From positions 1,575 to 41,843 of the IMG/VR virus record IMGVR_UViG_3300030106_005325: 40,269 bases of DNA, one strand, 5' to 3'. The DNA is from a virus. The position numbers and the translations under genes were made by a program. A model generated the notes under the pieces. The model was not told where the DNA came from. It was given only the letters and a program-made list of their open reading frames with translations, and ran no database searches. Of the stretch, positions 16,301-40,245 are shown one piece after another. Position 1 is the stretch's first letter. Each line of letters starts with the position of its first letter.

Positions 16301-16509
16301 GTAAAAAAACAAATATATCTAATTTAGATGAAAGAGAATTTACTGTGCAAGGTTTAGGTAATCCAAAAGAAGAACCCACTCAGGTAGCAGGTGGTAATGT
16401 ATCGATAACACTAACAAGCGATATGATAGATGACCCATTGAACACTGGCATGGGAACATCTAGTGCTGATGGAAGTTTTGTTGATGGTAACGATTATGAA
16501 AATGAATAA
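10372..16509 (+). CDS. Giant tail nozzle or stabilisation-like protein
   Basis: 2045 aa. The N-terminus (HTFTTGKMNKDVDERLVPNGEYRDALNV split over residues 5-32, then IQNIRGT) is the signature I know from Bacteroidota phage 'tail stabilisation' proteins, functionally compared with P22 gp10 and T7 gp12. The body is beta-rich with many Gly, Asp, Thr and Ser. A segment near residues 1580-1830 (NCWAFGNGVESDRVRDDF, SLAADQYRLYFTDKQRGAVLRLS) has the repeated character of a propeller domain. A Cys cluster (CPAC and VCKRKG, residues 1253-1265) may bind metal. It would form the distal short tail through which DNA and ejection proteins leave. The size is large for the role and suggests added receptor-facing domains. 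Confidence 0.6.
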   Translation: MPEIKHTFTTGKMNKDVDERLVPNGEYRDALNVEVRTTVGTDGVVSGTGGEGNAGSIQNIRGTLLVPDKPHTTTNYMGVSSRFIGSVADEKNNSAYFLVQAPQPSFSDISQVINGSPMKFIDSIWRYRTGFGMGSPYAEPIVVDYFALLISRLDACGDQQYTSVSSEGYSSLNVLDGSMYRVGMVVEAFNIDGVNVFTEEVTIKNIVTPSTGSDYIELSGGQTANPKSIQAFRFTHPGALNFHKSTFLITGINVIGNFLFWTDNTTEPKKINIKRSKRGTPISGVSHTQLYLKDPLSPSGTDNDLVDLQELEFPNTPQDLKEEHITVIRRAPMAAPSIEMKSSDRDGSVSVSGIDYAFATIENPDPEIGSVFNLEDVVFATTDWMANDVLTFYGTDEDSFVFRTLTFKFLSYIEDFDGLGEETDSATTIIKVELMSSSASLPLGSIQWEIKLQESTPLFELKLGRFAYRYRYDDGEYSTFSPWSKLGFLPGEYNFKSTKGYNLGMMNTARQFIVSDFIPFRGERPDDVASVEILYKTTDSPNVYTIKTVHREKDDLWETTSLTESNLDITATGKLKITSEMIHRALPKNQILRVWDNVPIKALAQEIVASRLVYANYQQGYNMPLSLTGLEQRTRTIGRATKAVPKPSIKSMRSYKWGMVFGDKYGRETPVIESAHVSLGPVAGDSGLSQEYSNFTGDIYIEKYLSSTQNAFQLRQVWGSVINGESGEPDDWMSYVKYYVKETSNEYYNLVMYNWYLAEPKLVNNTVAESAACVWLSFNSADRNKVDEETHLILKTEHGQEDEDLAPVVEKARFKILAIENEAPDYIKTEERKIGEITLQASDQDLAGWNSTISSGNLASSDASFNPDELTNYLTFKLPTGSVPPGFLNDHTGIGNVRVRVRGESNSDTKLYSRWITLTNWHISSDNNNFEVTVLEMFGQDANMTSRFTDTFGSTTGLSYFLEFREDVIENKPEFDGRFFVKVEKDGEGVLQERVLKKLEDTSDWLPIRSFKMGYITSSYENEAQVGPRANDVYNGADWYYGVFNQGEVQNTGGSTFSGTSVDTIAADTGLLGVEGFMGQCIGRFETEDFWRERRENDNVKGVWFIDSANMAQNETDGDMDNSNNAPYKPTGLDQGDAANGTLGRMYLSINYKNKSDAQLDAPGDDPAVFWDLMSDTDTYFRFQNDNTGVDSAGNPTGIVYKVVGFENGDRERSFYSTDYYNYPSYTEMLNYDQAYYPQGSGGNDDGYSENCPACKQEESYVCKRKGMRIEFRRLNDDGTVSDQGLNPSFFDPRGEVYHDGRDSQIIEIVTRSTSSAQKIFPNKNAAVWETEPKEDADLDLYYEASNALPMTLSMDNNMVFAPVLAPVTVKRIINGVETEVQMTDGAITPTNVFKTRRAASGVETSYSTWPYKTIAIQLQSNNLQDGTGIWTTQTTNLGLGDYLEFTHDDGTITTTTIQGFYDYNTNPITGNMDFLQNPIVYVDITLTDLSSYGFPGLTGIFAASGEQVSLTSGMAIFNTTSQSYTVDAVPPGILITSVGSLGIVLNDDSWMVEGQTYSVIATRTSGWLALDPRVWQYPVILGWHNCWAFGNGVESDRVRDDFNAPQIDNGSKVSTTFDDYGREVIGSGMIYSGLYNSQSSVNDLNQFNMAEKITKTLNPSYGSIQALRTRNTDIVTLCEDKVLKVLANKDALFNADGNPQLTATNKVLGTAVPFAGDYGVSKNPESLAADQYRLYFTDKQRGAVLRLSGDGLTPISNAGMSAWFRDHLEKTQTLIGTFDTVSGEYNIKLDYLKGLGPRFKNTIVSFNEQSKAWVSFKSFGEDLETGVSVSGKYVTAATVPESDSVTTLMATMWTHHWDEGPRNNFYGKQSFSSVDVVFNDMPSTVKMFTAVNYEGSQARVEEFTTEQNIFDSAGNSVYSPELFDATATYQSLSDGEYYNLTGKPGWFAEEFNTDLQEGQVSEFINKEGKWFNKIKGKKTNISNLDEREFTVQGLGNPKEEPTQVAGGNVSITLTSDMIDDPLNTGMGTSSADGSFVDGNDYENE

Positions 16510-16522
16510 AGTATAATTAATT

Positions 16523-22266: not shown

Positions 22267-25200
22267 ATGATAACACGATATAAAGGTAACGACGGTAAGG
22301 TTTACAAAGTAAAACCCGACGACGTTGAAAAATTCTTAGAAGATAATGATAAGGCAATCCTAATGCCTACAGTAGGAGATAACTATGTGTACCAAAAAGA
22401 AGATGGTGACACTATACAGGTTCCTCCCGAACATCTTAATCATTTCTTAAATAATCCAAAAAATAAAAATTCAAAACTAATTAGAGGAGGAGAAGAAGAT
22501 ATAACTGTTCCACCACCACAATATGGTATAGGTGAAATGGGAGGTGTTATGTATCCCCAAACTAGATCACAGTTTAAAAAATTACTAGAAGATCCTAAGA
22601 GTCAGTACTGGAAAAAGATAATAGACGGTGAGCTTGATGTTAATATAAGTGACGACCCTGAAATGCAAAAGTGGTTTGAAAGTAGTCTTAAAGCACATAA
22701 AGGGGCCACAAAACTGAAGGATCACACAGATACCGTGCTTCAAACTTTTGCCTTAAGTGGTCATATGGGCCCCATACAAGCTATAACTGCTGTTGGAGCT
22801 AAAGAGTTGTTAACAAAAACTGAAACAGGCAAGTTGGTACAACAAAAAATTAAAAATGCTTGGGAATGGATAAATCCAACTATTGAATCTAAGACCAAAG
22901 GAAAACAACTATCAGAAGAAAAATACAACGAGATATACAATGAGAACGGTCTTGTAAATGAAGACTTTATGGGCGCGATGATAGATGTTATTAACAACGA
23001 AGATGACGCGGGTTTAGAATATGATACTGATAGAGATGATAAAGTTCCTTTTCCACTAACATCAGCTTCTTTAAAAGCTCCCACGAAGAAAGGTTATGGT
23101 GGGTTTCTTGTTGGTCAAGAAAAAAGATTACAAAGATTCTTAAATGATTATTTTAAGGACCAAGGTGTTGTTTTCAAAGAAGCTAGAACCGGCCACGATG
23201 CTTTAACTGTGCATGGAGATGGTTGGGATTCTAAACCATTTAATATACATGTTCCGTATAAAGAAGGTAGCGATAGAATACTTCGTGGTGAAACATCAAG
23301 GAGGATAGGTGAGGGAACAGAGTGGGATGCTGAAGTTGGTGTTTCTGGATCGTCTCTACAAATTGATGTAGCGCAACTAAACGACATGATGCAAGAAATA
23401 AAGATGAGGCAAGACCCTGAGTCAATGGTAAATAATAGTTTATTTGTGCTTGATAGAATGAAAAATTCTAAATACTTAAATTCTATTGAAAACGAATGGC
23501 ACGAAGCAGAGTTTTATCAGCATCTAGACGTAATGTTTCACCGTGATAAATTTGGTGGGATGGCTCCTTCTAGATTAATTATTGACGATAACTCACGAAG
23601 TGATTTTAATGATGGTGTCGTAGGTGTAAATAAGGAAGGTTGGGTTGAGTTACCAGATGGTAGTAGGTTGTCCTATAAATATATATGGGATAATAGAGAA
23701 AGACTCTATGATTTGAAGTTGGCGGAAAGTGATATAAACTTTCAAAACGAAAAAGAAGATCTTCACATGAGTGATGAAGATAGGGCCGAGTTGATGAATT
23801 TAGAAACACTTAGAAGCAAGGGTGAGATAGACCCACAAGAGTATGCTAATAAAAAATACAAGCTTCAAACCAGGGGAGTTGATACTCACTTAGAGCGCAC
23901 AGACGCGTATTACCAAGGCAAAGAACCTGCTGCTTTAAAAAAGATAAATAATGAAATTAAGTTGTTGGAGTCTGGTTATATTAATGAATATGATGATAAG
24001 CAGAGGAAGTGGAACTTGGTTGAAGCTGATCAAAGTGAAGTAGAAGAAAAGTTAAAATTTTTAAAGGGAGAAAGAGACGCTTTAGTGGAGATAATAGGGG
24101 TGCAAGATTTAATTGAAAAAAATGAGGATGGCAGCTATGGAAAGTGGATAGGCGTTAATACGCTTAAATGGATAATGAATCCAACTAATCCAGAAGAGAT
24201 GATTCAGGTTGATCAAAACAACATACCAACTGGAGAAAAAAGAAAAGCTACTGGAGATGAGATTTTTATAGAAGAAGCTGCTGAGAGAATGGCTGAAACG
24301 ATGCCTAGGGATTATGTGTTAGAGCAACGTAGAAACGCTTACTATAGATTGTTATCAACTGGACAGGCATCTTGGGACCATAAAGATCAAATAGAAAAAG
24401 AAATACACTGGATACATAGAAACTTTGCTAATTTTTTTGACCATAAAAATAAGAGTTGGGACAATGATAAGCAGCAGCTAAAACATGCTTTTGGTGACGG
24501 TGGTACTAGAGATATATTTGATCTAAAACTTGCTGTAAACCCTTTAACAGGGGTGTTATCAGGACCACCTGGAGTCGGACAATTTACAAATGACTTAATT
24601 AGAGCAGCGGGAGATGTGAAAGCTAAGATGGAAGATCCTGAATATCGCGTTGGTCCAATGTTTACTACGCCGGAGGGATTCACTGAACAACCTGGGGGAT
24701 CAAACTATGCTGAAGATTTTAATAAAGCTTTAACCGAATACAAGATGTGGTCTAGAGCTGTAGATTTAAATATGAATCCACGTGAATCAAATATGGAGAA
24801 TCTTTTATTTGGAGTTAACTTTAATCTTAAAAACCTAAAAGATGCTAAGATGTTTGGTGGTGATAAAACACTTTTTCCAACCAAAGGAAGTTGGAACTCA
24901 GTTATAACAACAGGGCATGGATCGACACTTGTTGATGGTTTAGGTAAGGCGTTTTTTGGTGGACAGGGTGGACTGGAGGAGGTTACGCAAGCTGATATGG
25001 CTGAAATCTTTGAACACAAGTTGTTAGAGACGGGTATATATGATTTACCAGACGTTAGAAACGAAGGCTGGAATGGTAGAGGTAGTAGGGCTAGACAGAT
25101 ATCGAATGCCGCTACGAACACAGTAACATCGTTAGCACCACTACTAGCTGAGCTTTACGTTTTTAAAAGAGTAGGTGGTTTAAAAGCTTTAAATAAAACG

Positions 25201-28200
25201 TTTCATGGTTTAGCAAGAGCGTTTACTAAAAACTCAAATAGCAAACTATATAAAAATCTAGTTCACAAGGTTGTTGTACCTAGTGTTGTAACACCTATAG
25301 AGTGGGCTGCTGCAGAATACGGCGGTGAAGTAATGTTCGCTGATGGAACGGGTATGTTTGATGGTCACACTCTTCATTTTAATAGAGAGACTGGTGAGAT
25401 TGAAACGAACTTTATTTTCCCATGGGCGATGGGTGCTAGTGGTGGATTGTTTGGAATGGGCCTTAAAGGTTTTCAAAACAAAGTATTAAAACCACTTATA
25501 AATAAAGAGGGAGGAGCTGGTGGACAAATATTACTTTGGTTAGATAAACAAAAACACAAAGGTACATTAAGGAATTATATACTTGGTGATACAGGAGCTA
25601 AATTCGGTAAGTGGGTAGGCCAAGGAGTTACAGCTAGTGGTTTATTAACCGTTGCTAGCGCTGCTGAGCAAATAAAAAAGGATTTGGAAAATGGATGGTG
25701 GCCTTGGAGTAATGTAGATCCAGACTCAGAAGAAGGTAAACGTAGAAAAGAAGAGTGGAAATCTTTTACCACTCTAGATCATTTTGTAGCTACAACTGCA
25801 GCTATGATGACCGTGGGATACAGAGGTCTAGGTGGTATAAAAAAAGATATACAAAGAGATTTCTTAAGATTAAAAAATGAAACCCCAGCAACAGTTGCCG
25901 CAGACAAAGGTTTAGGCATGAGCGTGAAGAATGAAAAAAATGAAAATGGTACTTGGGAAAACAAAGATATATTATACGAGGCAGAGCAAATAAATAAACT
26001 GTTAGAAGGGGAGGTATTCTCAATAGAGGCTGAATTAAAAGAATTGAGAGATCAAGAGATGAACCCTAAAACAAAAGGTGTTTACGACGCTGTTAATGGT
26101 AAGGGTGCTTTAAAAAAGAAGGTTGAAAGTTTAACAAAAAAACTAGAAGAGATTAACAAAAGTAAAGCGGAGGTTAATAAGTGGTCTAACGATTTAATTA
26201 GAAGAAATGAAATTATTGAACTAAAAGAATCAATCAAGAATGAAGGTGAGTATTTAGATTATCTTAAAAGCGAATGGAATATAGCTAGGGGTCTCGCTGA
26301 GGGTGATTTAAAAGCTGACGACTTAGATAGAATAGCAGATTTAAATGCTAAAGAATTTGAGATGTTTTTAGAAAATGAAAACATAAAGGGTGATAGAGCT
26401 GATTATTTAAGATCTGTTTATAACGTTGTTTTTCAAGCTGGATTAATGGCTACTAAGTTGAAAATGGGTAAAAGAGGTAGTGAAACTAGAGACATGTGGA
26501 TGGAATCTCAATATGAATTAGCTCATAATTACAATAGGTTAAAAATACTAAAAGAAGCACAAGGAGATGGAGGCACGCATGGTGTTCAAATAAGAGACCT
26601 AGAAAGTAGAAACAAAGAGTTAAATGATAAGTTAGACAAGCAGTTTAAAGAACATAATATAGAATTTAAAAAAGAACTCTTGCGTCAACTAGAGCTAGAT
26701 AAAGTACTAGCTAAAGAACTCGGCGCTGATCTACATGTTGTAGATGAAAAGAAGTACATGGAGGCTCTAAAAAGAGAGGGTGAAGATATTGCTGCATCTA
26801 AATTTAGTGAAGCTTTTATTAATAAGAAAGGTAATGAAATATTCATAAATCTAAACCAAGCTCTAAAAGTTAAAAATCTTGGGGTTGGTAGACACGAGAT
26901 AATGCATAAATTATTATGGGACTCACTAAAAGAAAGCTACACATACAAAGACCCTTTGACTGGTAAAAAAGAAATTAGAAAAAGAATTTCAAAACAAGGA
27001 ATAGACGTTATCGACATGTTCTTAAATAGTTTATACTCTAAGGATAGGAAGTTAATAAAAGAAAGAGTAGAGAATAATTACAAGTATGAAAAAGATGTTA
27101 GATTTGTTAAGAAAGATGGTAAGAAAGTTTTAGAAGAATTTGATATCTTAATAGATGGTAAGAAAGTAGAAAGAGATCCTAGAGAATATTATGAAGAGTA
27201 CTTAACGGCTACAGTAGACGCAATTAAAAATGGACAACTTATAAAAGATTACTCAACTGGTAGACAGATTGGAAAAATAATTTGGCCTATATTAAAACAA
27301 AAAGGTCCGTATAAGAATATGTATAAATTCCAGGTTAATGGAGTTAACTCCAAAAAAGCTGTTAATGATCTATGGGCGATGATAGAAACCTTAACTAGAG
27401 AATCCGAGGTTAATGTCGGAATGGTTGTTGACGGTAAAAAAGTCAAAGGAGAAGGTGGCGCAAAGTCCAAAAGTAATGTTGAGGGTTTAGTTAGCAAGCA
27501 TGGTGGTAGTGCACCTAAAATGCTTAGAAAAGAATTGAATCGATATCCTGATTCTTTTGCTAAGAGAGAAGACGGTAGCTTTATACTGGATAGTGAAGGT
27601 AGAAAAATACCAGTAGAAGGAGCAGAGATTGATTGGTCTAGACATGAGTACCCAATTAATGAAAGTTCATTTGGAAAAGAAATAGGACCTATAGTTGGAA
27701 GTATATTAAAAAGACTATATGACCCTATAACTAGATACCCTAGCGGTAAAGAAGCGTTAAACGAACTAGGTATAACGAGAGAACAGTTTAAAAACGAATT
27801 AATACTTAGAGCTTCCTCACTTATAGATAGAGGAGGAGAATTTAGAAGAGAGGATTTAGGTAAGAATCAAACAATAGACGATTTTATTAGCAACAGACTT
27901 AATTTAAGAGCTAATGCTCTAGCTAAGGAGTTGGGTTTACCATCCGCTGAAGTGTTGGTTAAAAAAGAAAAATTAGAACAAAGGTCTGGTGAAGATGTTT
28001 ACGAAAGACAAGTTGGGGTAAAGGATAAGAGAATGAGTGATTTTGAAAACCAACAAATATTACTTAAGGAATCGACAAAAAAGGAAATATCTCAATTTAG
28101 AAAAGATTTTGGAATTGAAGATGGAACGGTTGAATATGAAACCCTAAAAAAGAAAGCCTTTGATGCTACATTAAATTCATTTAAAAAATCAAAAGTAAAA

Positions 28201-31200
28201 GTTTTTGATAGTGAAGGAAATATAAACCCCAAGTTTGTTTTAGATTTAAAACAAAATATCCGTAAAGAAGTAATGACCACCGTTAAAAAAATGTTTTTAG
28301 ATGGTGGTAAGAAGGGTGTTATCAATTTTACTGAAAAATACGGTAAAATGTTTTGGGAAAACTACGTAATGAGAACTCTTGATGGCAAGAACTGGATAGT
28401 TAAAGCTGGAACACCTAGTAAAGCTGTATTAAAAAAATATCCAGACGCTAAGGCTTTTGGTAGAGAGGTTGTTATTGAAAGAGCTAAGGTTGGTATTACT
28501 AAAAAAGCTCAAGGAATGGAGCAACTTAGAATGACAGCTGGAGAGACATCAGGCGCTGCTATATACAGAGTTAAAACATGGGAGGAAATAAATGGCAACA
28601 TGGGACTTCAAGCTCTTTTAAACGGGGAGTATTATAATCCAAAAACAAAAGAAACAATACAAGCTGAAGATATAATTGGTTGGAGTGGTAAAGCTGCAAC
28701 TGGAAATTACTTTGCTGGTAAAAGAGAGTCATTATCTAACTTTTTAGTTGACAACATAACTAAGAGTGTTGTTGATCAAGTTAGAAGAGAAAATAAAATA
28801 GAAGAAGTTAACGGAGAAAAAGTTATCGAAGGTCTATTAGATAAGATAGTAAACTCGGTTGGTGGTGAGATCGGTGTTAACTTCTCTAAGTCAACAGAGT
28901 TTAACGTAGATCACGCTAGAGAATTACTAAAGGATATATGGGAACATGGGTTGGGAGATGTTATTAGAGTTAGTGAAAAGGGTGACCTACAATTGTTAAG
29001 AAACTATGGAGAAAAGAATATAAGCAAGGAGACTATTAGTAAGGTAAATTCTATATGGGATTTTGCTCCAGTAACATCTAATGGTATTAAATTTATATCT
29101 GGTATAAAAAACCACAAAAATCCATTAATGCAAGAGATTGCAGACGCTTTTAAAAAAGACAGATTCACTAGAGACGATCTGCAAACTATAGGTAGAATAG
29201 AAAGACAATTACCAGAAATAGTTAAAGCTCTAGGAAAAGACATTCTACAAATGAAACCATTGTGGGATATGTTGGGTTATCATAGACGTATTATGAATTC
29301 AGCGTTTAAACAAGAATGGAGTTGGTGGAGGGATTTGTCTAAAAAAGAACAAGATAAATTAGTGAAAGAGCATGGTGAAGACGTTAAGTATCAGAAAACA
29401 AAAAATGGGAAACTAGTAAGTGCTCCATTTTACTCTTCTAAAAAAAGATTAATGGAACTAGCAGATAGTTTCAAGTCTGAACCTAAAATTAAAAAACTAG
29501 TTGATAAAGTTAAATTGATGAACAAGGGTTCTGGTGGTCCCTTTAAGGCTGTTGAAGACATATTAAATAAAGATATCACACAAGCGGAAAAAATACTTGA
29601 GCTTAAAAAAATTGAATCAGAGATTAGAAAAGCTAGTGAAGCCAACATAAACCTACATGTTGAGATAATAAACAGGTTAACCAAGGGAGTTAAAGAAAAG
29701 AAATTCGACGAAGCCACTGTAGCCCATATACTGCAAGCTCAAACTAGTTTAGTAAAAGGATTTAGAGCGTTGAGTAGATTGGAATTGGTAGACGTTAGAA
29801 CAGGATCTCAAGCAACTTATAGATACACAACTAAAACTAGATCTGGTAAGGTTGTAGAGAAGTTTACCAATAAACTAACTGACGCTAAAAAAGGAATTGA
29901 ATACAGTGTTAATAAAAGAAACCCTTGGTTTAAAGAAGCTGTTAAATGGTACGGTAGTGAAAAGATTGTGATGGAAAAAATAGCCAAAGGTAAACTTGGT
30001 ATAAAGGGTGAGCACGTAGGTCCTAGTGCTATAACTAATATAAAGTTAGTTGAATTCATAGCTGAAGCTACTAGAGGTGAAAAATATAAAACAGATAAAG
30101 ATAGAAAAGCTAGAATAAAAGAAATACTAACAGAGCATTCTCAGTTAATAACTGCTGACTTCATCACCGACATAATAGATAAAGGAGGTAAAACAAATCC
30201 AGCTGGGTTTGATAGAATAAAGTTCCTAGATCAATTTCACGCTGAGGGTAAACACATAGATAATATTTTCTCTTTAAAAGGTGAGGGTTACTATCAGTTT
30301 CTAACAAGTAAAAAAATATCTAAATGGGAGAAGGAAAACGTAAAGAAGTCGTTTGAACAAAAAGAAAAATTAACTAGAGATCGAAACATACATGAAAGTG
30401 GTCTTAAGTTCTCTAAGTCTGGTAAGAAAAAGGGTATGTCTACTTTTGATTTTGACGAAACACTCATTGTTAAAGGTAAGAATTTTGTCACAGCTAAAAA
30501 CCCATTAACCGGTGAAATTAAAAAAATAAAATCTGAAGCTTGGCCAACTGAAAGTTCTAAATTAATAAAAGAAGGATATGAGTTTGATTTTGGAGATTTT
30601 GTAAATGTTAAAGGTGGAGTTGATGGACCACTTCTGCAGAAGATGAAAAATCAAATTAAAAAATATGGAGTTGAAAATGTATTTGTTTTAACAGCTAGGC
30701 CAGCTCAATCTGCAATAGCTATACATGGATGGTTAAAGTCTAAGGGTATAAATATACCTATAGAAAATATAACCGGACTAGGTAATGGTACTAGTAGAGC
30801 TAAAGCTGAGTGGATGTTAGATAAATTTGCTGAAGGTTATAACGATATGTATTTCGTTGATGACGCCCTTGGTAATGTTAAAGCTGTTAAGGAGGTATTA
30901 GAGCAACTAGATGTTAAATCAAAAGTTGTTCAAGCTAAAAACAAGGTACGAGTAGGTAAATACATAGTTGATATAACTACAAAAGAAGGTAGAGATTTTG
31001 TTAAAAATTATGAAACAAACCCTGGTAAGAAAGTTGTTTTCCTCGCGGGTGGTGCTGGTAGTGGTAAAAGTAATGTTGTTAAGAAATTAAACTTAAGAGA
31101 TCAAGGGTTTGAGATAGTGAATCAAGATATATCGTTAGAGTGGTTAAAAAAGCAAGAGGGTGTACCAGAAGATATGAGGGAGTTAACGAAAGAGCAAAGA

Positions 31201-34077
31201 AGTACACTTGGTAAAATTGGACACCAAGCTAGAGGTATTATGCAGAGAAAGAGGCTTAAGTTCCAAGGACAAGGCAAGGGTATAGTTGTTGATGGTACAG
31301 GTGGTTCAATGAAAGCTATGGAAAAACTTATAGCAGAGTTTAAAGAAAAGGGATACGAAACAAGCATGTTGTTTGTTGAGACGTCCAAGGAAACGGCTTT
31401 AGCTAGAAATAAGGCTAGAAAAGAAAGATCTTTATTAGATATTATAGTTATAAAAAATCATGAAGCGGTTCAAGGAAATAAACCTGGATTTAAGAAGATG
31501 TTTAAAGACAACTTCATGGAAGTTAAGACAGATAAATTAACACAAAAAGATTTAATGCCACCTGAACTTATTGCTAAGATGAACAAGTTTGTTGGTAGAG
31601 GTAAAGAGTTAAAGTTAGGAAAAGAATTGCCAGATTGGATAGTTGACACAACCACTCCAAAGGGTAAAAAACTAATTGAAAGTGTAGAAGGACTACCTGT
31701 TGTAAAAGGCAAGGGGTTAAGTAAGGTTCAGTTTTCTAAAAGTATAGATGCTGAGTTTAATGAAATGATTGAGCGTAGATTTAAGGTTGGTGCTAAAGAC
31801 GTTATAAGCGGTGATGTTGCTAGAATAAAAGGTAGGAACATAGGTAAGTTTAACTTCTTTATACCACCATCAGCCGAGGACTTCGCTGGACTAATGTATT
31901 CGCTTTTAGGTAAAGGAAAACAAGGGAATGCTGACATGGCTTGGTTTAAAAAGAATCTATTCGATCCATTTGCTATTGGTATTAGAGATCTAACTGTTAC
32001 TAAGCAAAAAATGTCTGAAGAGTATAGATCTTTAATTAAACAAATAAATAAAGAGCTTGGTACTAAAAATACTTTTGGTAAGAAAAGATTCGACTTTAAT
32101 AAAAAAGTTGAAGGGACTGTGCATACTGTTGATACTGCGATTAGAACATATCTGTGGGAGAAGAATGGATTTGAGGTACCTGAAATGACTGAGGCTACTA
32201 AAAACAAGTTGCTAGATTATATAAATAGCAATCCTAAGTTAATTAATTTCGCTGAAGTTCTAAACAATATAACTAGAGCTAAGGAGGGATATGAAGCTCC
32301 AGGAGAGTATTGGATGATGGAAAATATATCTCACGATTTAAATAGATTGGTTCAAGAAAAAACGAGAGCTGATTTCTTAGCCAAGTGGATAGAGAATAAA
32401 AATATAATTTTTTCCGAGAAAAATTTAAACAAGATAGAAAGCGTACTTGGTTCTGGTTATAGAGAGGCGTTAACTAATATGTTGTACAGAATGGAGACTG
32501 GTACCAATAGGTTGATTGGCACTAAAGATGGACCAACTAAAAGATTTTACGATTGGATAAATGGTTCTGTTGGAGCAACGATGTTCTTAAACACTAGATC
32601 AGCTACGCTACAGACCATATCTATGGTTAACTTTATAAACCATAAAGACAATAGTATATTTGCGGCTGCTAAAGCTTTTGCTAACCAACCACAGTTTTGG
32701 AAAGACTTTTCTTTTATAATGAATTCACCCATGCTAAAACAGAGAAGAGCTGGATTAGAGATAGATGTATCAGCTTCTGAACTAACAAACCTTTTTGAAA
32801 GAAGCGGAAGAAACCCTCAGTCAGTTTTAAAATATCTTTTACAACAAGGTTTTTTACCTACTAGATTAGCAGATAGTTTTGCTATCGCGATGGGTGGCGC
32901 ACCATTCTATAGAAATAGATTAAACATGTATTTAAAGCAAGGTATGAGTGCGGCTAAAGCTAAAGAAAAAGCTTGGTTAGATTTTCAAGAGATAGCTGAA
33001 GCAACGCAGCAGTCTTCTAGACCTGATTTAATTTCTCAACAGCAAGCTGGACCACTTGGTAGACTTATACTTGCTTGGGCTAACACGCCAATGCAGATGA
33101 CTAGATTAATGAAGAAAGCTATGTCCGACCTAGTCAATGGTAGAGGTTATTGGATGAATAATGTTTCTAAGATGGTTTACTATGGAGCTGTTCAAAACCT
33201 ATGGTTTATGACATTACAAACTGGATTAGGTTGGTTGTTGTTTGGCAGTGATCAAGAGGAGATGATTGAAGACAAAACAGAAAGAGTTTTCAATGGAGCT
33301 TTTGATACTGTACTTAGAGGTACTGGAATATATGGAGCCAGTGCTGCAACAATTAAAAATGTTGTACTTCAATATCAACGTGAAAGAGAAAAAGATTTTG
33401 GAAAAAGAGATATGGGTAATGCTGTTATAGAGATGATAAATCTATCTCCACCTTTAGGAGCTAAATCTAGAAAGGTTTATAGTGCTATGAAAACATGGAC
33501 ATACAACGAGGGTGTTGGAGAAGAGTTGGGTTTTAGAATAGAGAATCCAAACCTACGAGCAACAGCTAACGTTATAGAAGCATTAACAAATGTTCCTGCA
33601 GCCAGAGCGTTAAATAAAGCTAATAACTTAGAAGAGGTTGTGACAGGTGGACACGCTTTATGGCAAGACGCCGCTATGATCGGTGGTTGGAGTCCGTGGA
33701 ATATAGGTGTGAAAGACGCTGAGTTAGAAGAAGCTAGAGATCGGGCTGATGTAAAAAATAAAGAGGAGAGAGCAGCTCAAAAAGAACGTGATAAAGAAAT
33801 TGAGAAGAAAATAGAGGAAATGAAAATGACTAACCAGGGTTACAAGAGCAAAAGGTGTTCTGGTAGAAAATCTAATGGTCAACGTTGCAGTATAACTGGA
33901 TGGACAAAGGGTAAGTCGTTTAGATGTGGTTATCACACATCATATAAACCTAATCAAAGTAGTGATAGAGATAACGATGGTGTTAAGGAATACCAGTGTA
34001 AGGCTCGAACTTCTTCTGGTAAGAGGTGTAAGAACAGAACAGAACATAAAAGCAAAAAATGTTATGCTCACAGATAA
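22267..34077 (+). CDS. Giant multidomain polyvalent ejection protein (metallopeptidase, HAD, P-loop kinase, zinc-like repeats)
   Basis: 3936 aa, probably injected with the DNA. N-terminus: two short repeats of the 'KVYKVKPDDVEKFLED' type (residues 10-26 and 50-65). Residues 950-1190 hold several Gly/Ala hydrophobic segments that could cross a membrane; 1230-1330 is coiled coil. Residues 1543-1547 are HEIMH, with a downstream EEYLTA (1643-1648) that may supply the third ligand of a zinc peptidase. A HAD phosphatase carries DFDET (2728-2732), LTAR (2808-2811), Lys2846 and DD (2865-2866). A zeta-toxin-like kinase follows with GGAGSGKS (2928-2935), NQD (Asp2954) and VVDGTG (3007-3012). Residues 3432-3456 belong to a C-terminal region common in marine phage giant proteins. 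The last 75 residues carry two C-x9-C-x10/12-C-x2-H repeats. Ejection role is inferred from position. Confidence 0.8.
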   Translation: MITRYKGNDGKVYKVKPDDVEKFLEDNDKAILMPTVGDNYVYQKEDGDTIQVPPEHLNHFLNNPKNKNSKLIRGGEEDITVPPPQYGIGEMGGVMYPQTRSQFKKLLEDPKSQYWKKIIDGELDVNISDDPEMQKWFESSLKAHKGATKLKDHTDTVLQTFALSGHMGPIQAITAVGAKELLTKTETGKLVQQKIKNAWEWINPTIESKTKGKQLSEEKYNEIYNENGLVNEDFMGAMIDVINNEDDAGLEYDTDRDDKVPFPLTSASLKAPTKKGYGGFLVGQEKRLQRFLNDYFKDQGVVFKEARTGHDALTVHGDGWDSKPFNIHVPYKEGSDRILRGETSRRIGEGTEWDAEVGVSGSSLQIDVAQLNDMMQEIKMRQDPESMVNNSLFVLDRMKNSKYLNSIENEWHEAEFYQHLDVMFHRDKFGGMAPSRLIIDDNSRSDFNDGVVGVNKEGWVELPDGSRLSYKYIWDNRERLYDLKLAESDINFQNEKEDLHMSDEDRAELMNLETLRSKGEIDPQEYANKKYKLQTRGVDTHLERTDAYYQGKEPAALKKINNEIKLLESGYINEYDDKQRKWNLVEADQSEVEEKLKFLKGERDALVEIIGVQDLIEKNEDGSYGKWIGVNTLKWIMNPTNPEEMIQVDQNNIPTGEKRKATGDEIFIEEAAERMAETMPRDYVLEQRRNAYYRLLSTGQASWDHKDQIEKEIHWIHRNFANFFDHKNKSWDNDKQQLKHAFGDGGTRDIFDLKLAVNPLTGVLSGPPGVGQFTNDLIRAAGDVKAKMEDPEYRVGPMFTTPEGFTEQPGGSNYAEDFNKALTEYKMWSRAVDLNMNPRESNMENLLFGVNFNLKNLKDAKMFGGDKTLFPTKGSWNSVITTGHGSTLVDGLGKAFFGGQGGLEEVTQADMAEIFEHKLLETGIYDLPDVRNEGWNGRGSRARQISNAATNTVTSLAPLLAELYVFKRVGGLKALNKTFHGLARAFTKNSNSKLYKNLVHKVVVPSVVTPIEWAAAEYGGEVMFADGTGMFDGHTLHFNRETGEIETNFIFPWAMGASGGLFGMGLKGFQNKVLKPLINKEGGAGGQILLWLDKQKHKGTLRNYILGDTGAKFGKWVGQGVTASGLLTVASAAEQIKKDLENGWWPWSNVDPDSEEGKRRKEEWKSFTTLDHFVATTAAMMTVGYRGLGGIKKDIQRDFLRLKNETPATVAADKGLGMSVKNEKNENGTWENKDILYEAEQINKLLEGEVFSIEAELKELRDQEMNPKTKGVYDAVNGKGALKKKVESLTKKLEEINKSKAEVNKWSNDLIRRNEIIELKESIKNEGEYLDYLKSEWNIARGLAEGDLKADDLDRIADLNAKEFEMFLENENIKGDRADYLRSVYNVVFQAGLMATKLKMGKRGSETRDMWMESQYELAHNYNRLKILKEAQGDGGTHGVQIRDLESRNKELNDKLDKQFKEHNIEFKKELLRQLELDKVLAKELGADLHVVDEKKYMEALKREGEDIAASKFSEAFINKKGNEIFINLNQALKVKNLGVGRHEIMHKLLWDSLKESYTYKDPLTGKKEIRKRISKQGIDVIDMFLNSLYSKDRKLIKERVENNYKYEKDVRFVKKDGKKVLEEFDILIDGKKVERDPREYYEEYLTATVDAIKNGQLIKDYSTGRQIGKIIWPILKQKGPYKNMYKFQVNGVNSKKAVNDLWAMIETLTRESEVNVGMVVDGKKVKGEGGAKSKSNVEGLVSKHGGSAPKMLRKELNRYPDSFAKREDGSFILDSEGRKIPVEGAEIDWSRHEYPINESSFGKEIGPIVGSILKRLYDPITRYPSGKEALNELGITREQFKNELILRASSLIDRGGEFRREDLGKNQTIDDFISNRLNLRANALAKELGLPSAEVLVKKEKLEQRSGEDVYERQVGVKDKRMSDFENQQILLKESTKKEISQFRKDFGIEDGTVEYETLKKKAFDATLNSFKKSKVKVFDSEGNINPKFVLDLKQNIRKEVMTTVKKMFLDGGKKGVINFTEKYGKMFWENYVMRTLDGKNWIVKAGTPSKAVLKKYPDAKAFGREVVIERAKVGITKKAQGMEQLRMTAGETSGAAIYRVKTWEEINGNMGLQALLNGEYYNPKTKETIQAEDIIGWSGKAATGNYFAGKRESLSNFLVDNITKSVVDQVRRENKIEEVNGEKVIEGLLDKIVNSVGGEIGVNFSKSTEFNVDHARELLKDIWEHGLGDVIRVSEKGDLQLLRNYGEKNISKETISKVNSIWDFAPVTSNGIKFISGIKNHKNPLMQEIADAFKKDRFTRDDLQTIGRIERQLPEIVKALGKDILQMKPLWDMLGYHRRIMNSAFKQEWSWWRDLSKKEQDKLVKEHGEDVKYQKTKNGKLVSAPFYSSKKRLMELADSFKSEPKIKKLVDKVKLMNKGSGGPFKAVEDILNKDITQAEKILELKKIESEIRKASEANINLHVEIINRLTKGVKEKKFDEATVAHILQAQTSLVKGFRALSRLELVDVRTGSQATYRYTTKTRSGKVVEKFTNKLTDAKKGIEYSVNKRNPWFKEAVKWYGSEKIVMEKIAKGKLGIKGEHVGPSAITNIKLVEFIAEATRGEKYKTDKDRKARIKEILTEHSQLITADFITDIIDKGGKTNPAGFDRIKFLDQFHAEGKHIDNIFSLKGEGYYQFLTSKKISKWEKENVKKSFEQKEKLTRDRNIHESGLKFSKSGKKKGMSTFDFDETLIVKGKNFVTAKNPLTGEIKKIKSEAWPTESSKLIKEGYEFDFGDFVNVKGGVDGPLLQKMKNQIKKYGVENVFVLTARPAQSAIAIHGWLKSKGINIPIENITGLGNGTSRAKAEWMLDKFAEGYNDMYFVDDALGNVKAVKEVLEQLDVKSKVVQAKNKVRVGKYIVDITTKEGRDFVKNYETNPGKKVVFLAGGAGSGKSNVVKKLNLRDQGFEIVNQDISLEWLKKQEGVPEDMRELTKEQRSTLGKIGHQARGIMQRKRLKFQGQGKGIVVDGTGGSMKAMEKLIAEFKEKGYETSMLFVETSKETALARNKARKERSLLDIIVIKNHEAVQGNKPGFKKMFKDNFMEVKTDKLTQKDLMPPELIAKMNKFVGRGKELKLGKELPDWIVDTTTPKGKKLIESVEGLPVVKGKGLSKVQFSKSIDAEFNEMIERRFKVGAKDVISGDVARIKGRNIGKFNFFIPPSAEDFAGLMYSLLGKGKQGNADMAWFKKNLFDPFAIGIRDLTVTKQKMSEEYRSLIKQINKELGTKNTFGKKRFDFNKKVEGTVHTVDTAIRTYLWEKNGFEVPEMTEATKNKLLDYINSNPKLINFAEVLNNITRAKEGYEAPGEYWMMENISHDLNRLVQEKTRADFLAKWIENKNIIFSEKNLNKIESVLGSGYREALTNMLYRMETGTNRLIGTKDGPTKRFYDWINGSVGATMFLNTRSATLQTISMVNFINHKDNSIFAAAKAFANQPQFWKDFSFIMNSPMLKQRRAGLEIDVSASELTNLFERSGRNPQSVLKYLLQQGFLPTRLADSFAIAMGGAPFYRNRLNMYLKQGMSAAKAKEKAWLDFQEIAEATQQSSRPDLISQQQAGPLGRLILAWANTPMQMTRLMKKAMSDLVNGRGYWMNNVSKMVYYGAVQNLWFMTLQTGLGWLLFGSDQEEMIEDKTERVFNGAFDTVLRGTGIYGASAATIKNVVLQYQREREKDFGKRDMGNAVIEMINLSPPLGAKSRKVYSAMKTWTYNEGVGEELGFRIENPNLRATANVIEALTNVPAARALNKANNLEEVVTGGHALWQDAAMIGGWSPWNIGVKDAELEEARDRADVKNKEERAAQKERDKEIEKKIEEMKMTNQGYKSKRCSGRKSNGQRCSITGWTKGKSFRCGYHTSYKPNQSSDRDNDGVKEYQCKARTSSGKRCKNRTEHKSKKCYAHR

Positions 34078-36446: not shown

Positions 36447-36611
36447 ATGGGATTTAAAATGAGTGGGTTTTCTCCATTTACAAAAATGGACGAAAAAACA
36501 GCAAAACAAAAATATGAAGAAGCCGTGAAAGCCGGTAAAGTTAAGCCAGATTATTTTAATAATTTTATGTATAAACTCACTGGAAATATAAAATATAAAA
36601 CTAGAAAATGA
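36447..36611 (+). CDS. Small protein with N-terminal FKMSGFSPF motif (54 aa)
   Basis: Starts in the atattATGGG context and overlaps the next gene in ATGA. The first 12 residues (MGFKMSGFSPFT) match the start of the 88-aa protein at 19891. The rest is helical and basic (EEAVKAGKVKPDYFNNF). No cysteines or membrane segment. The motif sharing suggests a virion-directed or processed small protein. Function unknown. Confidence 0.55.
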   Translation: MGFKMSGFSPFTKMDEKTAKQKYEEAVKAGKVKPDYFNNFMYKLTGNIKYKTRK

Positions 36612-37660
36612 AAAAATTAATTATATTATTTTTGCTAATTAGTACTGTTTGTACGGGGCAAATAAAAGACTTCTTTAAATATTCTACATTCTATACATCG
36701 ATGACAATGGGTACGTCATTTGTTGAAACAGAAGATTACATTGCTGTAAACAAAGGATACGAAGATGTTACTGAAGTTAATCCTTATGATTACAATCTAA
36801 CAATCGGGCTAAGAAAGATTGCTCGCATGGACTATGAGTATAAGGTTAAAACGTGGTATTATGGAACTGAAGATGGCGTAAGTGATAATGTAACTATAGG
36901 TAACGCTATTGGTTGGGAATATTTACTTAACTACTCTTTTATACGCGAACGTGGTGAGAAGTTTAATAATCAAAACTTTTGGTTAAGATATTTAGGTAAC
37001 AGTTGTGTTACTAAATTACAATACACAGACAATCAAAGAGTTAATTTAAGGTTTGGTTCTTTCGATACTAGATTTAGATTAACTAAGGGGAACTGGGACT
37101 TCACCATTGGTGCTATGGCTAGAATACACCCAGTATATGGTGTAACTCCAATAGATGATTTTTGGGTGCCAGGAGAAAACACATTTCAAGATTTAGCAGA
37201 AGATTTTGGTTACGCATCTCAACCTTGGATTCAAGGATTTTATATCGACCAGAATTGGTACGATGTTAGTGGTGGAGATTCCGTACTTATCGCTACCTCA
37301 AACGACGAGTTTTTCCACCACTATTTTGGAGACGCGGTAGCACGATTTAACGAGCGTGAATTGGAGAAATTAGGTTTACAAAGAGAATTAAGCGCGGTAA
37401 TAGGTTTAGCTTATTATAAGTATACACCTAAATTATGGCTACACATTTGGGCAAATTGTTTACCATATCACTATGGATTAGATGATTACTCATTTGAATA
37501 TAAAAGTGGAATTCTAAATAATATAGAATGGGATACTGGAATAGTATTTGGTTCAAGGATTACAAAATCCCTTGGAATGTTCATTGAAGGAACTCACATG
37601 AAGTACTGGGAGAAACCAGTATATGAAGTGAAGTTTGGTTTTAACTATTTAATATTTTAA
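36608..37660 (+). CDS. Exported protein, possible outer-membrane beta-barrel
   Basis: 350 aa with a clear N-terminal signal peptide (MKKLIILFLLISTVCTG, cleavage likely before Gln18, a common Bacteroidota pattern). The mature part is rich in Tyr, Phe, Trp, Asp and Asn with alternating hydrophobic strands and ends in EVKFGFNYLIF, an aromatic terminal strand typical of outer-membrane proteins. It is coupled to the upstream gene (ATGA). A phage-encoded outer-membrane protein made late could block receptors or alter the envelope before lysis. A secreted or virion protein is the alternative. I recognise similar proteins in phages of flavobacteria but no tested function. The 'STVC' is a poor lipobox. 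Confidence 0.55.
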   Translation: MKKLIILFLLISTVCTGQIKDFFKYSTFYTSMTMGTSFVETEDYIAVNKGYEDVTEVNPYDYNLTIGLRKIARMDYEYKVKTWYYGTEDGVSDNVTIGNAIGWEYLLNYSFIRERGEKFNNQNFWLRYLGNSCVTKLQYTDNQRVNLRFGSFDTRFRLTKGNWDFTIGAMARIHPVYGVTPIDDFWVPGENTFQDLAEDFGYASQPWIQGFYIDQNWYDVSGGDSVLIATSNDEFFHHYFGDAVARFNERELEKLGLQRELSAVIGLAYYKYTPKLWLHIWANCLPYHYGLDDYSFEYKSGILNNIEWDTGIVFGSRITKSLGMFIEGTHMKYWEKPVYEVKFGFNYLIF

Positions 37661-37661
37661 T

Positions 37662-37805
37662 ATGAGTAGAAGAAGATATATGCATGGAGCACGGAGACAC
37701 CCTAGCCATAAAATAGGTTGGGATGAGCACGTAGACCACAATACTGAAGAAGAGTATAAACATATGACAATAATTAGAAACGGTATAAAAAAGAAAAAGA
37801 AATGA
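37662..37805 (+). CDS. Small His/Arg-rich protein (47 aa)
   Basis: Starts 1 base after the previous stop and overlaps the next gene by 4 bases (ATGA). 47 aa with an Arg-rich start (MSRRRYMHGARRH), a His-containing middle (GWDEHVDHN) and a terminal Lys run (KKKKK). The tight coupling on both sides supports translation. Function unknown; it could bind nucleic acid or membrane. Confidence 0.5.
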   Translation: MSRRRYMHGARRHPSHKIGWDEHVDHNTEEEYKHMTIIRNGIKKKKK

Positions 37806-38578
37806 AAAAATATATTATAATACTATTTGCATTCATTGGCTCGTTTGTCAATGCGCAAGATTACGATTTTCAAGAACTATGTATAGCGTGCGCGGAGGCA
37901 CAAGGATTTTATTGTGGAGACGATCCAACAAATTGGACTCAATATTCTCCAGAAGGTTGTGTTCCAAACAATTGGCTTAACGATGGTTGGGAAGACTGTG
38001 TTGATGCTTCAGACGAAAACGAAGCTGAACCAACATCAATAGAGGAGTGCGCTCCACCACCACCACCACCTTGCGATACAGTTTATGTTGAAGTGCCTAT
38101 TATAGAAATTGACACTATAGAAGTAGACGTGCCTTTCTATATATATGAAACAGAATTTATATTTGATACTATTATTGAGACTGAATATATTACAAATATC
38201 GTTATAGACACGTTTGAGATTGAAACATTTGTTCCGGAATACGTTTATATAACTGACACGGTTTTTGTTTACGAGGACGTCTTAGATACGTTGTTTGTTG
38301 ATGTTATTGAATACGTTGATGTTATTGTTTACGATACAATTATAGAAACACAAACTGAATATATAGAAATATTTGTAGTTGACACTATTACTGAGTATGT
38401 TGAGATAACAAACACTGAGTATATCGACTGTGACTCAGGGTTACCGTGTAACTCAAGTATTATGGAGATAGTAGATAAATCAAAGCAAAATAATGTGATA
38501 TATAATATGAAAGGACAAGCGATATTAACGAGAGAGGGTTTATATATAGAAAACGGAAAAATCTATTTCAAAAAATAA
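37802..38578 (+). CDS. Secreted protein with LDL-receptor-A-like motif and T9SS-like C-terminal sorting signal
   Basis: 258 aa. Signal peptide MKKYIIILFAFIGSFVNA with cleavage before Gln19. Residues 27-83 are Cys-rich (C27, C30, C38, C53, C66, C83); CVPNNWLNDGWEDCVDASDE (53-72) matches the end of an LDL-receptor class A module, with Trp58, Asp61, Asp65, Asp71 and Glu72 at calcium-ligand positions, but Asn60 replaces the usual fourth Cys. After a Pro run (85-90) comes an acidic, strand-forming repeat region (92-208) with recurring 'DT-(V/I)-(F/Y)-V' and 'E-Y-I/V' units. The last 29 residues (IYNMKGQ ... GLYIENGKIYFKK) resemble a type IX secretion sorting domain, shorter than usual. It would be shown on, or released from, the host surface. 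Confidence 0.65.
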   Translation: MKKYIIILFAFIGSFVNAQDYDFQELCIACAEAQGFYCGDDPTNWTQYSPEGCVPNNWLNDGWEDCVDASDENEAEPTSIEECAPPPPPPCDTVYVEVPIIEIDTIEVDVPFYIYETEFIFDTIIETEYITNIVIDTFEIETFVPEYVYITDTVFVYEDVLDTLFVDVIEYVDVIVYDTIIETQTEYIEIFVVDTITEYVEITNTEYIDCDSGLPCNSSIMEIVDKSKQNNVIYNMKGQAILTREGLYIENGKIYFKK

Positions 38579-38579
38579 T

Positions 38580-38987
38580 ATGTATACTTATAAAGCTAAA
38601 TTAGATAGGGTTATCGATGGTGATACTATTGACGCTAATATAGATCTTGGATTTGACGTTAGTGTACACAAAAGAATTAGGTTAACAGGTATTGACACAC
38701 CTGAATCTAGAACTAGAGACTTAGAGGAAAAAGCTAGGGGATTAGCTTCTAAAGCTAGATTAATAGAATTACTTGGAGATGGCGATTTTATATTAGAAAG
38801 TAGAGAGGTTGGTAAATTCGGAAGGGTGTTAGGTACTTTATATACTATAAGTGAAGAGTCTATTAACATAAATGATAAGTTGGTTGAAGAAGGTTATGCA
38901 GTTGAATATTGGGGTGGCAAAAAAAAGAAGAATAAAAAAGAAGTAGATAAACAAGATCAAAACGAAGACGTTCCGTTTGGAGATTAA
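38580..38987 (+). CDS. Staphylococcal nuclease-like (thermonuclease) protein
   Basis: 135 aa. The fold is that of SNase: VIDGDT (11-16), then IRLTGIDTPES (33-43), then GKFGRVLGTLY (78-88). The catalytic residues of the family are all present: Arg34, Glu42 and Arg82, with metal ligands Asp15, Asp39 and Thr40. The C-terminal tail (from residue 107) is Lys-rich then acidic. No signal peptide is seen, so it should act in the host cytoplasm, or in the virion. It may degrade host DNA or RNA late in infection, or trim packaged DNA. It lies in the lysis block 1 base after the secreted-protein gene. Confidence 0.88.
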   Translation: MYTYKAKLDRVIDGDTIDANIDLGFDVSVHKRIRLTGIDTPESRTRDLEEKARGLASKARLIELLGDGDFILESREVGKFGRVLGTLYTISEESININDKLVEEGYAVEYWGGKKKKNKKEVDKQDQNEDVPFGD

Positions 38988-38997
38988 AATAAATAAT

Positions 38998-39210
38998 ATG
39001 AATATATTTAAAGATAATAATGATTGGAACGAGAAATCAATTATTGGTTTTGTCGCGTTCACGATAATGTGCTTAATAATGGTTGCTGATTTAGTTACAG
39101 GATGGGTTGGTAAAGATTTAGTTATAAATGAGTTTGTTTATGACTCATTTGTATGGGTTGTGTTAGGATGTTTTGGAATCAGTGGAGTAGAAAAATTTGC
39201 TAAAAAATAA
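38998..39210 (+). CDS. Holin candidate (two membrane segments)
   Basis: 70 aa from the ATG at 38998, which follows an AT-rich leader (taaaataaataat). A longer frame from 38977 would overlap the nuclease gene by 11 bases and is less likely. Two hydrophobic helices are visible: about 14-36 (IIGFVAFTIMCLIMVADLV) and 45-64 (FVYDSFVWVVLGCFGI), separated by a short polar loop with GKD, and a basic C-terminus (KFAKK). This is the layout of small class II-type holins. The neighbours (nuclease, DUF5675, membrane coiled coil) support a lysis role; it has not been matched to a named family. Confidence 0.6.
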   Translation: MNIFKDNNDWNEKSIIGFVAFTIMCLIMVADLVTGWVGKDLVINEFVYDSFVWVVLGCFGISGVEKFAKK

Positions 39211-39213
39211 ATA

Positions 39214-39558
39214 ATGACTAAAGAACTATCAGAAGACAGTAAGTTTCAAATAAGTATAAAAACTTTAATTGCTATAGTAGTAGCTGTTGCTACAGTTATA
39301 TCAGCTTACTTTGGTTTAATGGCAACAATCAACTCTAAATTTGGAGAGCTAGAACTTAAGGTTAATGAAGCGTTAGAATTGCCTAAACCTGGAACAGGTA
39401 CATATACAATAGACATGGGTGATCCAGCTGCCACCAACACGTGGCCACCAACTAGAATGGAGTTTAATATGAAAGATCAAATGGCTCGTAACCAAATTGA
39501 TGCGTTAGTAAAGGAAGTAGATGAATTGAAAGACGAAATAAAATTATTAAGAAAATGA
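39214..39558 (+). CDS. Membrane-anchored coiled-coil protein, possible spanin or lysis accessory
   Basis: 114 aa. One membrane helix at about residues 13-38 (TLIAIVVAVATVISAYFG), then a short helix, a Pro/Gly-rich spacer (LPKPGTGTYTIDMGDP), and a C-terminal coiled coil (residues 84-114, QIDALVKEVDELKDEIKLL). The topology, short N-terminus inside and coiled coil outside, is that of an inner-membrane spanin-like or holin-associated subunit. It ends in an ATGA overlap with the thioredoxin-like gene, so these two are probably translated together. The role is inferred. Confidence 0.5.
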   Translation: MTKELSEDSKFQISIKTLIAIVVAVATVISAYFGLMATINSKFGELELKVNEALELPKPGTGTYTIDMGDPAATNTWPPTRMEFNMKDQMARNQIDALVKEVDELKDEIKLLRK

Positions 39559-39950
39559 TTAGAATAGATATATCAAATTACGTTTACATCCTATTAATGC
39601 TACTTGCTTTTGGTTGTGGTACAGTTATGGGTCAAGAATTCATTAATGGTGATTTTAAAGATCGTGTAGCCAAAGACGTTGTTACGGTAGAATTTTGGGC
39701 TGATTGGAACAAGGCTAATCAATTTGCTGAACTAAATAAGTTAAAAGAATGTGAAGTATACAGATTAGACATAATGACCAACTCTGATATACAAGCTGAA
39801 TACAATATAACTGGTATTCCAACTGTTATTATATTTGACAATGGTGTTGAAAAAGTGAGGTTTAAACCAAATATAATGTTTCAGTTAGAAGCTGATAAAA
39901 AAGTAATTCAAAATTCTGTTGACACAATAATACTAAATAAATTTCAATAA
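39555..39950 (+). CDS. Exported thioredoxin-fold protein lacking the CxxC active site
   Basis: 131 aa. A signal peptide or membrane anchor covers about residues 9-27 (VYILLMLLAFGCGTVMG, then Gln27). The rest is a thioredoxin fold: VTVEFWADWNKANQF (43-57), then VYRLDI, then the cis-Pro segment GIPTVIIFDNG (87-97). At the site of the normal WCGPC the sequence is W-N-K-A-N (51-55): both cysteines are replaced by Asn, so it cannot do disulphide exchange. The only remaining Cys are 21 and 66. A redox-dead fold in the periplasm could bind or chaperone a lysis or surface protein. Recognised as recurrent in marine phages; function unknown. Confidence 0.7.
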   Translation: MIRIDISNYVYILLMLLAFGCGTVMGQEFINGDFKDRVAKDVVTVEFWADWNKANQFAELNKLKECEVYRLDIMTNSDIQAEYNITGIPTVIIFDNGVEKVRFKPNIMFQLEADKKVIQNSVDTIILNKFQ

Positions 39951-40065: not shown

Positions 40066-40245
40066 TTAGCTATTTTTAATAGCTTGAATTTGCACTCTTA
40101 CGTTCTGAGCAGCCTCTTTAATTGTTTGCATACTCTTTCTAGCTCTAGTTCCAGCGGATTTATTTCCACTCATAAACTTTTCTATTTCTTCATGTGCACT
40201 GTGCATTTCATCTTGCATAGTGTCTAATAATTCTGGTAAATTCAT
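40066..40245 (-). CDS. Hc1 histone H1-like small DNA-binding protein
   Basis: The 59-aa minus-strand ORF reads from an ATG at 40245 to a TAA at 40066. The C-terminal half (FMSGNKSAGTRARKSMQTIK and onward to QIQAIKNS) matches the Hc1-type histone H1 family of Bacteroidota, in which GNKxAGTRxRK...IKxxAQxxRxxIQxxK is the hallmark. The N-terminal half is a short acidic helix (ELLDTMQDEMHSAHEEIEKF). Host versions bind DNA and affect nucleoid packing. A phage copy could condense phage or host DNA, or compete with the host protein. It is the only minus-strand gene seen and faces the late block, so it probably belongs to a separate, possibly early, transcription unit outside the window. Confidence 0.8.
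   Translation of the reverse strand: MNLPELLDTMQDEMHSAHEEIEKFMSGNKSAGTRARKSMQTIKEAAQNVRVQIQAIKNS

Follow-up and report, generated by a model that had tools for sequence, protein, structure and literature searches.

Organization of the putative cargo locus

An open reading frame at positions 37802-38578 (+) of the analyzed window, a 40-kb part (40,269 nucleotides) of a 41.8-kb virus record, encodes a 258-aa protein in which a Sec-type signal peptide, a Cys-rich head, an acidic stalk and a putative C-terminal sorting tail follow one another. In anticipation of the reading proposed below, the protein is called the cargo. The features of the locus, with the evidence on which each assignment is based, are as follows.

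36608..37660 (+), partner gene encoding a signal peptide and a predicted outer-membrane beta-barrel, 350 aa, ending NYLIF (adjacency, AlphaFold, Foldseek/VIA)
37802..37855 (+), cargo signal peptide, residues 1-18, predicted to be cleaved ahead of Gln19 (basic-hydrophobic N-terminus, AQ-type site)
37880..38074 (+), Cys-rich head, residues 27-91 (alignment A4, AlphaFold, domain shared with host genomes)
37955..38020 (+), LDL-A-like calcium-cage segment, residues 52-73 (PF00057 E 0.0014, cage acids, structural alignment)
38072..38449 (+), stalk of variable length, residues 91-216 (O-glycosylation motifs D(S/T)(A/I/L/V/M/T))
38453..38575 (+), predicted short T9SS C-terminal signal, residues 218-258 (profile A2, hhalign, motifs of PMC11969387)
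38580..38987 (+), staphylococcal-nuclease-like protein, a variable passenger in 20/85 neighborhoods (PF00565 E 2.6e-12, phrog_452 E 5e-40)
38977..39210 (+), small holin-like protein with two predicted TM segments, 40/85 neighborhoods (sequence inspection)
39214..39558 (+), protein with N-terminal TM and C-terminal coiled coil, i-spanin-like topology, 72/85 neighborhoods (inspection; phrog_20984 E 3.7e-7)
39555..39950 (+), signal-peptide thioredoxin-fold protein without CxxC, 74/85 neighborhoods (PF00085 E 7.8e-8)

Members of the cargo family were collected from IMG/VR, where a peptide-pattern scan returned 26 loci and a subsequent search with an alignment returned 227 matching stretches; per-residue counts refer to the 85 members with a readable head. 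The Sec signal expected of a T9SS cargo was recognized by inspection of the aligned N-termini. In the window protein, cleavage is predicted, also by inspection, between MKKYIIILFAFIGSFVNA and the following Gln (...FVNA/Q), and this Q19 is invariant in the 49 family members of alignment A4. AlphaFold modeled the cargo with pLDDT values of approximately 77-86 over residues 21-80 and 71-81 in the tail. Most of the stalk reached 25-32 in this full-length model, which is unreliable, and no stalk structure is therefore claimed.

The terminase of the window matched 87 phage records. All relatives with a recorded host are phages of Flavobacteriaceae (Flavobacterium, Cellulophaga, Tenacibaculum or Maribacter), which bears out the flavobacterial setting assumed in a preliminary description of this DNA. 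The closest terminase (65% identity) belongs to an environmental podovirus record from Manatee Spring for which no host is recorded. Genes for the terminase, the portal and virion structural proteins precede the cargo gene in the order found in the Flavobacterium elemo phages, and the place of the cargo gene directly after the structural genes suggests that it is expressed late.

The Cys-rich head resembles an LDL-A module

Seven cysteines of the head (C27, C30, C38, C53, C66, C83 and C91) are invariant in alignment A4. When the head was searched against all of Pfam, the LDL-A family PF00057 was matched with an E-value of 0.0014 (19.2 bits), and a search of the phage genome alone yielded 1.1e-5 (22 bits); in both searches the head stays below the curated gathering cut-off of 24.1 bits. 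The same holds for the 12 of 49 family members with a PF00057 match at E<=0.01, the best of which reached 4e-4. The segment CVPNNWLNDGWEDCVDASDE (residues 53-72) was aligned to LDLR repeat 5, whose residue numbering we take as the guide for placing the calcium ligands. The corresponding acids D61, D65, D71 and E72 are invariant in 85/85 homologues, as is an Asn at the position of LDL-A Cys4, and this joint invariance argues against a chance resemblance. The preliminary description had proposed an LDL-A-like calcium cage in a phage-encoded protein with a Sec signal and had remarked that one Cys is Asn; the cage stands, with a profile score below the cut-off, and the replacement proved to be a trait of the whole family.

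Structural comparison pointed weakly in the same direction. LDL-A-bearing proteins fill 10 of the 14 rows returned by Foldseek for the head model, but at E>2, and all seven rows with Z>=2 in the VIA structural alignment are LDL-A repeats, with Z 2.0-2.2 and rmsd 2.3-3.5 over alignments of 35-40 residues. Weak matches are to be expected for so small a domain. The phage head shares with the LDL-A module (PF00057) the cage pattern W/Y-x-x-D-G/x-x-x-D-C-x-D-x-x-D-E, its size and, tentatively, its predicted shape. It differs from this module in its longer C2-C3 and C5-C6 loops, in a score below the family cut-off and in Cys4, which is always replaced (by Asn in the phages, by Gly/Ala and others in host relatives). 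The six-cysteine 1-3, 2-5, 4-6 pattern of LDL-A is not followed by the head, in which other Cys residues are present and the spacing is altered. Judged by sequence and model, the head looks LDL-A-like, yet it does not look like a standard LDL-A member.

LDL-A modules are mostly known from animals, as the preliminary description stated. Related Cys4-less heads, however, were found in secreted proteins of large size encoded by four genomes of small-genome Flavobacteriales. Because the same Cys4-less domain occurs in these proteins, an animal-derived LDL-A was set aside and a host source of the head appears likelier than an animal import. A search for literature on bacterial LDL-A domains found nothing relevant.

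A glycosylation-motif stalk and a predicted short C-terminal signal

The stalk is acidic and ends in a conserved YIDC-D/S/T-GLPC box. O-glycosylation in Bacteroidota takes place at the motif D(S/T)(A/I/L/V/M/T) (PMC8550257, PMC12871550), which occurs seven times in the stalk of the window protein and 0.98 times in shuffled sequences; the corresponding family means are 7.26 and 0.86. Expressed as density, the cargo contains 2.71 motifs per 100 aa and the other proteins of the window contain 0.25. The natural reading of the stalk would be a rod of O-glycans on an exported protein.

The C-terminus of the cargo, ending YNMKGQAILTREGLYIENGKIYFKK, contains the motifs B (YNMKGQ), D (GLYI) and E (K-x-Y-F-K-K). 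These motifs are found in this order, with proper spacing and at the extreme C-terminus in the 85 tails listed and in alignment A2. No curated sorting-domain model (PF18962, NCBIfam) matches the tail of the cargo, and the tail searched alone against Pfam and NCBIfam gave no match. A profile of 22 phage tails (A2) was searched in 296 genomes from the order of a Bacteroidetes single-cell genome. Of the 25 matches with E<=0.01, 22 are located no more than 25 codons from a stop codon, mostly in secreted proteins, and the host proteins concerned are unrelated (e.g. fasciclin-like, metalloprotease-like and plastocyanin-like, named by inspection). Four Flavobacteriales genomes were matched at E<1e-15, with one protein in each, and here a stalk and tail of the phage type are joined to other extracellular heads, namely leucine-rich repeats in L028/G001 and CTDPxACNY-type repeats in G007. 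The chromosomal leucine-rich-repeat protein of L028 (5325-6836; single-cell genome AG-343-M05) is likely the host-side counterpart or the donor of the display chassis.

Profile-profile alignment with hhalign connected the phage tail to the host short tails, which had themselves been found by the phage tail profile, with a probability of 97.9 (E 6e-13). These host tails in turn aligned to full CTDs with a probability of 95.4 (E 1.8e-8); column-shuffled controls remained at <=2.7%. The direct alignment of the phage tail to full CTDs is weak (probability 21) and no curated model matches, so the link between the tail and the full CTDs is transitive. PorV exceeds the cut-off in 4/4 and PorU in 3/4 of the genomes with phage-type tails, PorU being below the cut-off in the remaining one; this check concerns the tail-bearing genomes, which need not be those of the phage's host.

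A class of short CTDs is cleaved and glycosylated in Prevotella intermedia (PMC11969387). These signals comprise ~40-55 residues at the extreme C-terminus of proteins with an N-terminal Sec signal, and they contain a motif B with Tyr and Gly, a motif D with GxY followed by Ile, a basic motif E and a gap of 1-6 residues between B and D, all of which is also seen in the cargo. In contrast to the P. intermedia proteins, the cargo is encoded by a phage of Flavobacteriales and its export and cleavage are predicted from sequence. A further difference concerns a minority of the phage tails (L010, L012, L017, L022, L064 and others), in which the supposedly invariant Gly of motif D is replaced by Ser (ESIYI).

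The T9SS-like tail named in the preliminary description is thus supported by short-CTD motifs and by homology to host tails, but not by a curated sorting-domain match; the comparison with sorting profiles that had been suggested as a check came out negative with the curated models, and this outcome was overturned by the short-CTD bridge. The proposed export by the type IX system of the host is well supported by homology, and the claim stops at that level.

An outer-membrane barrel is the constant neighbor of the cargo

The barrel gene lies directly upstream of the cargo gene in 84 of the 85 distinct contigs, and the 85th contig ends at this point; the median overlap of the two genes is 3 bp. 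The AlphaFold model of the barrel (pLDDT 74, pTM 0.68) was compared by Foldseek and VIA, and the top structural matches are all outer-membrane barrels, Tsx (Z 15.8 over 187 residues) being one of them. The structural matches also include OMPLA, and a phospholipase reading was considered. The last residue is F in 76/85 members. The modeled partner accordingly displays the signal peptide, the antiparallel barrel and the C-terminal aromatic residue of a predicted outer-membrane beta-barrel. A search of the barrel against Pfam gave no match. An identity as PorP/SprF or PorV was rejected, as hhalign gave probabilities of 2.8 and 0.5 with the signal peptide alone aligned; PorV and SprF structures are also not among the structural matches listed, which excludes nothing. 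Since the barrel is unlike PorV and PorP/SprF by profile, a mechanistic partnership with the cargo rests on gene linkage.

A divergent barrel homologue is present in L166, a phage contig that binning had placed with a Flavobacteriales genome. The operon in this contig begins with genes for a two-TM protein, a secreted protein of 994 aa that carries a canonical T9SS domain (PF18962, E 3e-13) and the barrel, followed by an N-TM coiled-coil protein, a thioredoxin-fold protein and an amidase. Genes resembling the 7-deazaguanine (queuosine-type) pathway and a thioredoxin gene are located near this operon (L166 1946-5035), and a ribonucleotide reductase is encoded further along (13906-16609).

At least 541 stretches in IMG/VR are related to the L166 barrel. 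PF18962 exceeded the cut-off in 49 of 50 sister-barrel records, which were partly picked for a visible upstream cargo, so that this rate of 98% is an upper estimate; 47 of the 50 barrels have a same-strand PF18962 cargo no more than 1.2 kb upstream. When all 72 sister loci that have an ORF upstream are considered, a full-domain cargo was directly adjacent by pattern in 49. One sister contig of 245 kb contains two barrels and two full-domain cargoes, one beside each. None of the 41 records from the window's own clade contains PF18962. The distribution (49/50 versus 0/41) indicates one cargo per barrel, either full-domain or short-tail, as if the two putative cargo types substitute for each other. 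The preliminary description mentioned neither the barrel partner nor the O-glycosylation motifs of the stalk, nor the full-CTD cargo that serves as the alternative. Head, barrel and N-TM protein were detected in no isolate of the phage collection and PF18962 in none of the 8 records examined; consequently, the search yielded no laboratory phage that carries the module.

Further downstream, the holin-like and i-spanin-like genes beside the barrel-cargo pair are possible flavophage lysis genes; the family matched by the latter, phrog_20984, is of unknown function. Catalysis of disulfide formation in the Cys-rich head was considered as a role of the thioredoxin-fold neighbor and rejected because a CxxC motif is present in 2/74 proteins only and absent in the other 72. 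A redox-dead structural or binding role is likely.

A proposed system for remodeling the host surface

Bacteroidota export proteins to their surface mainly through T9SS, and the 258-aa protein is very probably a phage-encoded cargo of this system in the host. Sec would export the cargo and the periplasmic glycosylation machinery would coat its stalk. The tail would then be recognized by PorV/SprA, which would carry the protein across the outer membrane, and trimmed by PorU, so that a glycosylated rod would present the head at the cell surface or close to it. The barrel would be the outer-membrane partner of the displayed cargo, either helping in its display or acting alongside it. Such remodeling of the host surface late in infection might keep progeny from re-adsorbing to the cell or to its debris and/or prevent superinfection. 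For the barrel as a working partner of the cargo the odds are slightly better than even, and the partnership of cargo and barrel taken together is somewhat favored. The weakest step is the purpose; exclusion or receptor masking is the first guess, at odds below even. With a surface tag and a phage-made outer-membrane pore traveling along, the virus apparently redecorates its host during infection. The full reading, a widespread two-gene system of flavobacterial phages in which a barrel and an interchangeable T9SS-exported glycosylated protein would rebuild the infected cell's surface, so that T9SS would be put to a dedicated phage use in excluding superinfection or controlling the outer membrane, is given a probability of about 0.35.

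Gene pairs of a SprB/SprF-type cargo and a PorP/SprF barrel occur in Flavobacterium, where a T9SS cargo gene adjoins a gene for an outer-membrane barrel as in the phage. The phage pair differs from these in that the barrel has no profile similarity to PorP/SprF and the tail is type A-like rather than type B. Phage-made outer-membrane proteins that block adsorption are exemplified by Llp of T5 and the Lc porin of phage PA-2. These change the host surface in the way proposed here and are likened by function, not by sequence; unlike the proposed cargo, they do not use T9SS. Phage-encoded T9SS cargo has been reported for Cryophage (PMC7468147) and noted for the crAss-BACON phages (PMC6949934), and only these isolated remarks were found in the literature. 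As in the present case, Cryophage and crAss-BACON cluster 2 carry a phage gene with a T9SS sorting signal and are presumed to use the host machine. Their cargoes are enzymes, PA14 or BACON proteins with recognized sorting domains, whereas a Cys-rich LDL-A-like head, a glycosylation-motif stalk, a short tail and the pairing with a barrel are found here, in hundreds of contigs. No description of a barrel-cargo pair, an LDL-A-like phage head or phage short CTDs was found in the available literature. If the proposal is true, a barrel-cargo pair in hundreds of contigs would make T9SS surface control a routine element in the life cycle of phages from a large group, offer a handle on superinfection control in Flavobacteriales and provide a source of compact secretion signals that curated models miss.

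The gene neighborhood could also be read as a Bacteroidota-specific lysis apparatus, in which barrel, cargo and the i-spanin-like, holin-like and thioredoxin-fold proteins act together on the outer membrane, weakening or breaching it as infection ends. The conserved holin-like and i-spanin-like topologies and the location of the cluster beside an amidase (L166) or DUF5675 gene agree with such a role, and no known spanin pair was recognized among the cluster neighbors. However, a glycosylated, calcium-cage, T9SS-targeted cargo has no obvious membrane-disrupting part, and barrel and cargo stay together while lysis genes are often re-ordered or several genes away; a lysis function is thus considered unlikely. 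Similarly doubtful is an adhesin or a nutrient or attachment factor from which the infected cell would profit or which would help progeny to spread, by aggregation or by binding of particles or polysaccharides through the head. LDL-A modules do bind ligands, the nearly invariant head residues suggest one conserved ligand, and in host relatives this head or tail is combined with other extracellular modules, but the benefit to the host would be small if the gene, following the structural genes, is expressed late in the lytic cycle.

It is improbable that the C-terminus is a generic hydrophobic/basic sequence and the protein simply periplasmic. Although no curated CTD model matches, 85 members have motifs B, D and E in order and properly spaced, unrelated secreted host proteins bear the same tail and full-CTD cargo takes its place in sister phages. 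Least probable is a virion component, i.e. a tail or fiber decoration with misleading N- and C-terminal features: the gene does lie just downstream of the structural module and lectin-like domains are possible on phage fibers, but Sec signals of the cleavable type, O-glycosylation motifs and T9SS tails are hallmarks of proteins outside the cytoplasm, stalk and tail are shared with host chromosomal relatives and the sister cargo has a canonical CTD.

Other genes of the window

A 3936-aa protein (22267-34077) with an AAA/zeta-toxin-like kinase domain (PF13671 E 4e-11, PF06414 E 6e-10) occupies the position of the giant structural protein of the elemo phages. The 2045-aa protein at 10372-16509 matches the crAss muzzle C-terminal domain (PF25729 E 9e-7), hinting at a possible kinship with Crassvirales tails. 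A small Hc1 histone-like protein (PF07432 E 7e-18) is encoded at 40066-40245 (-).
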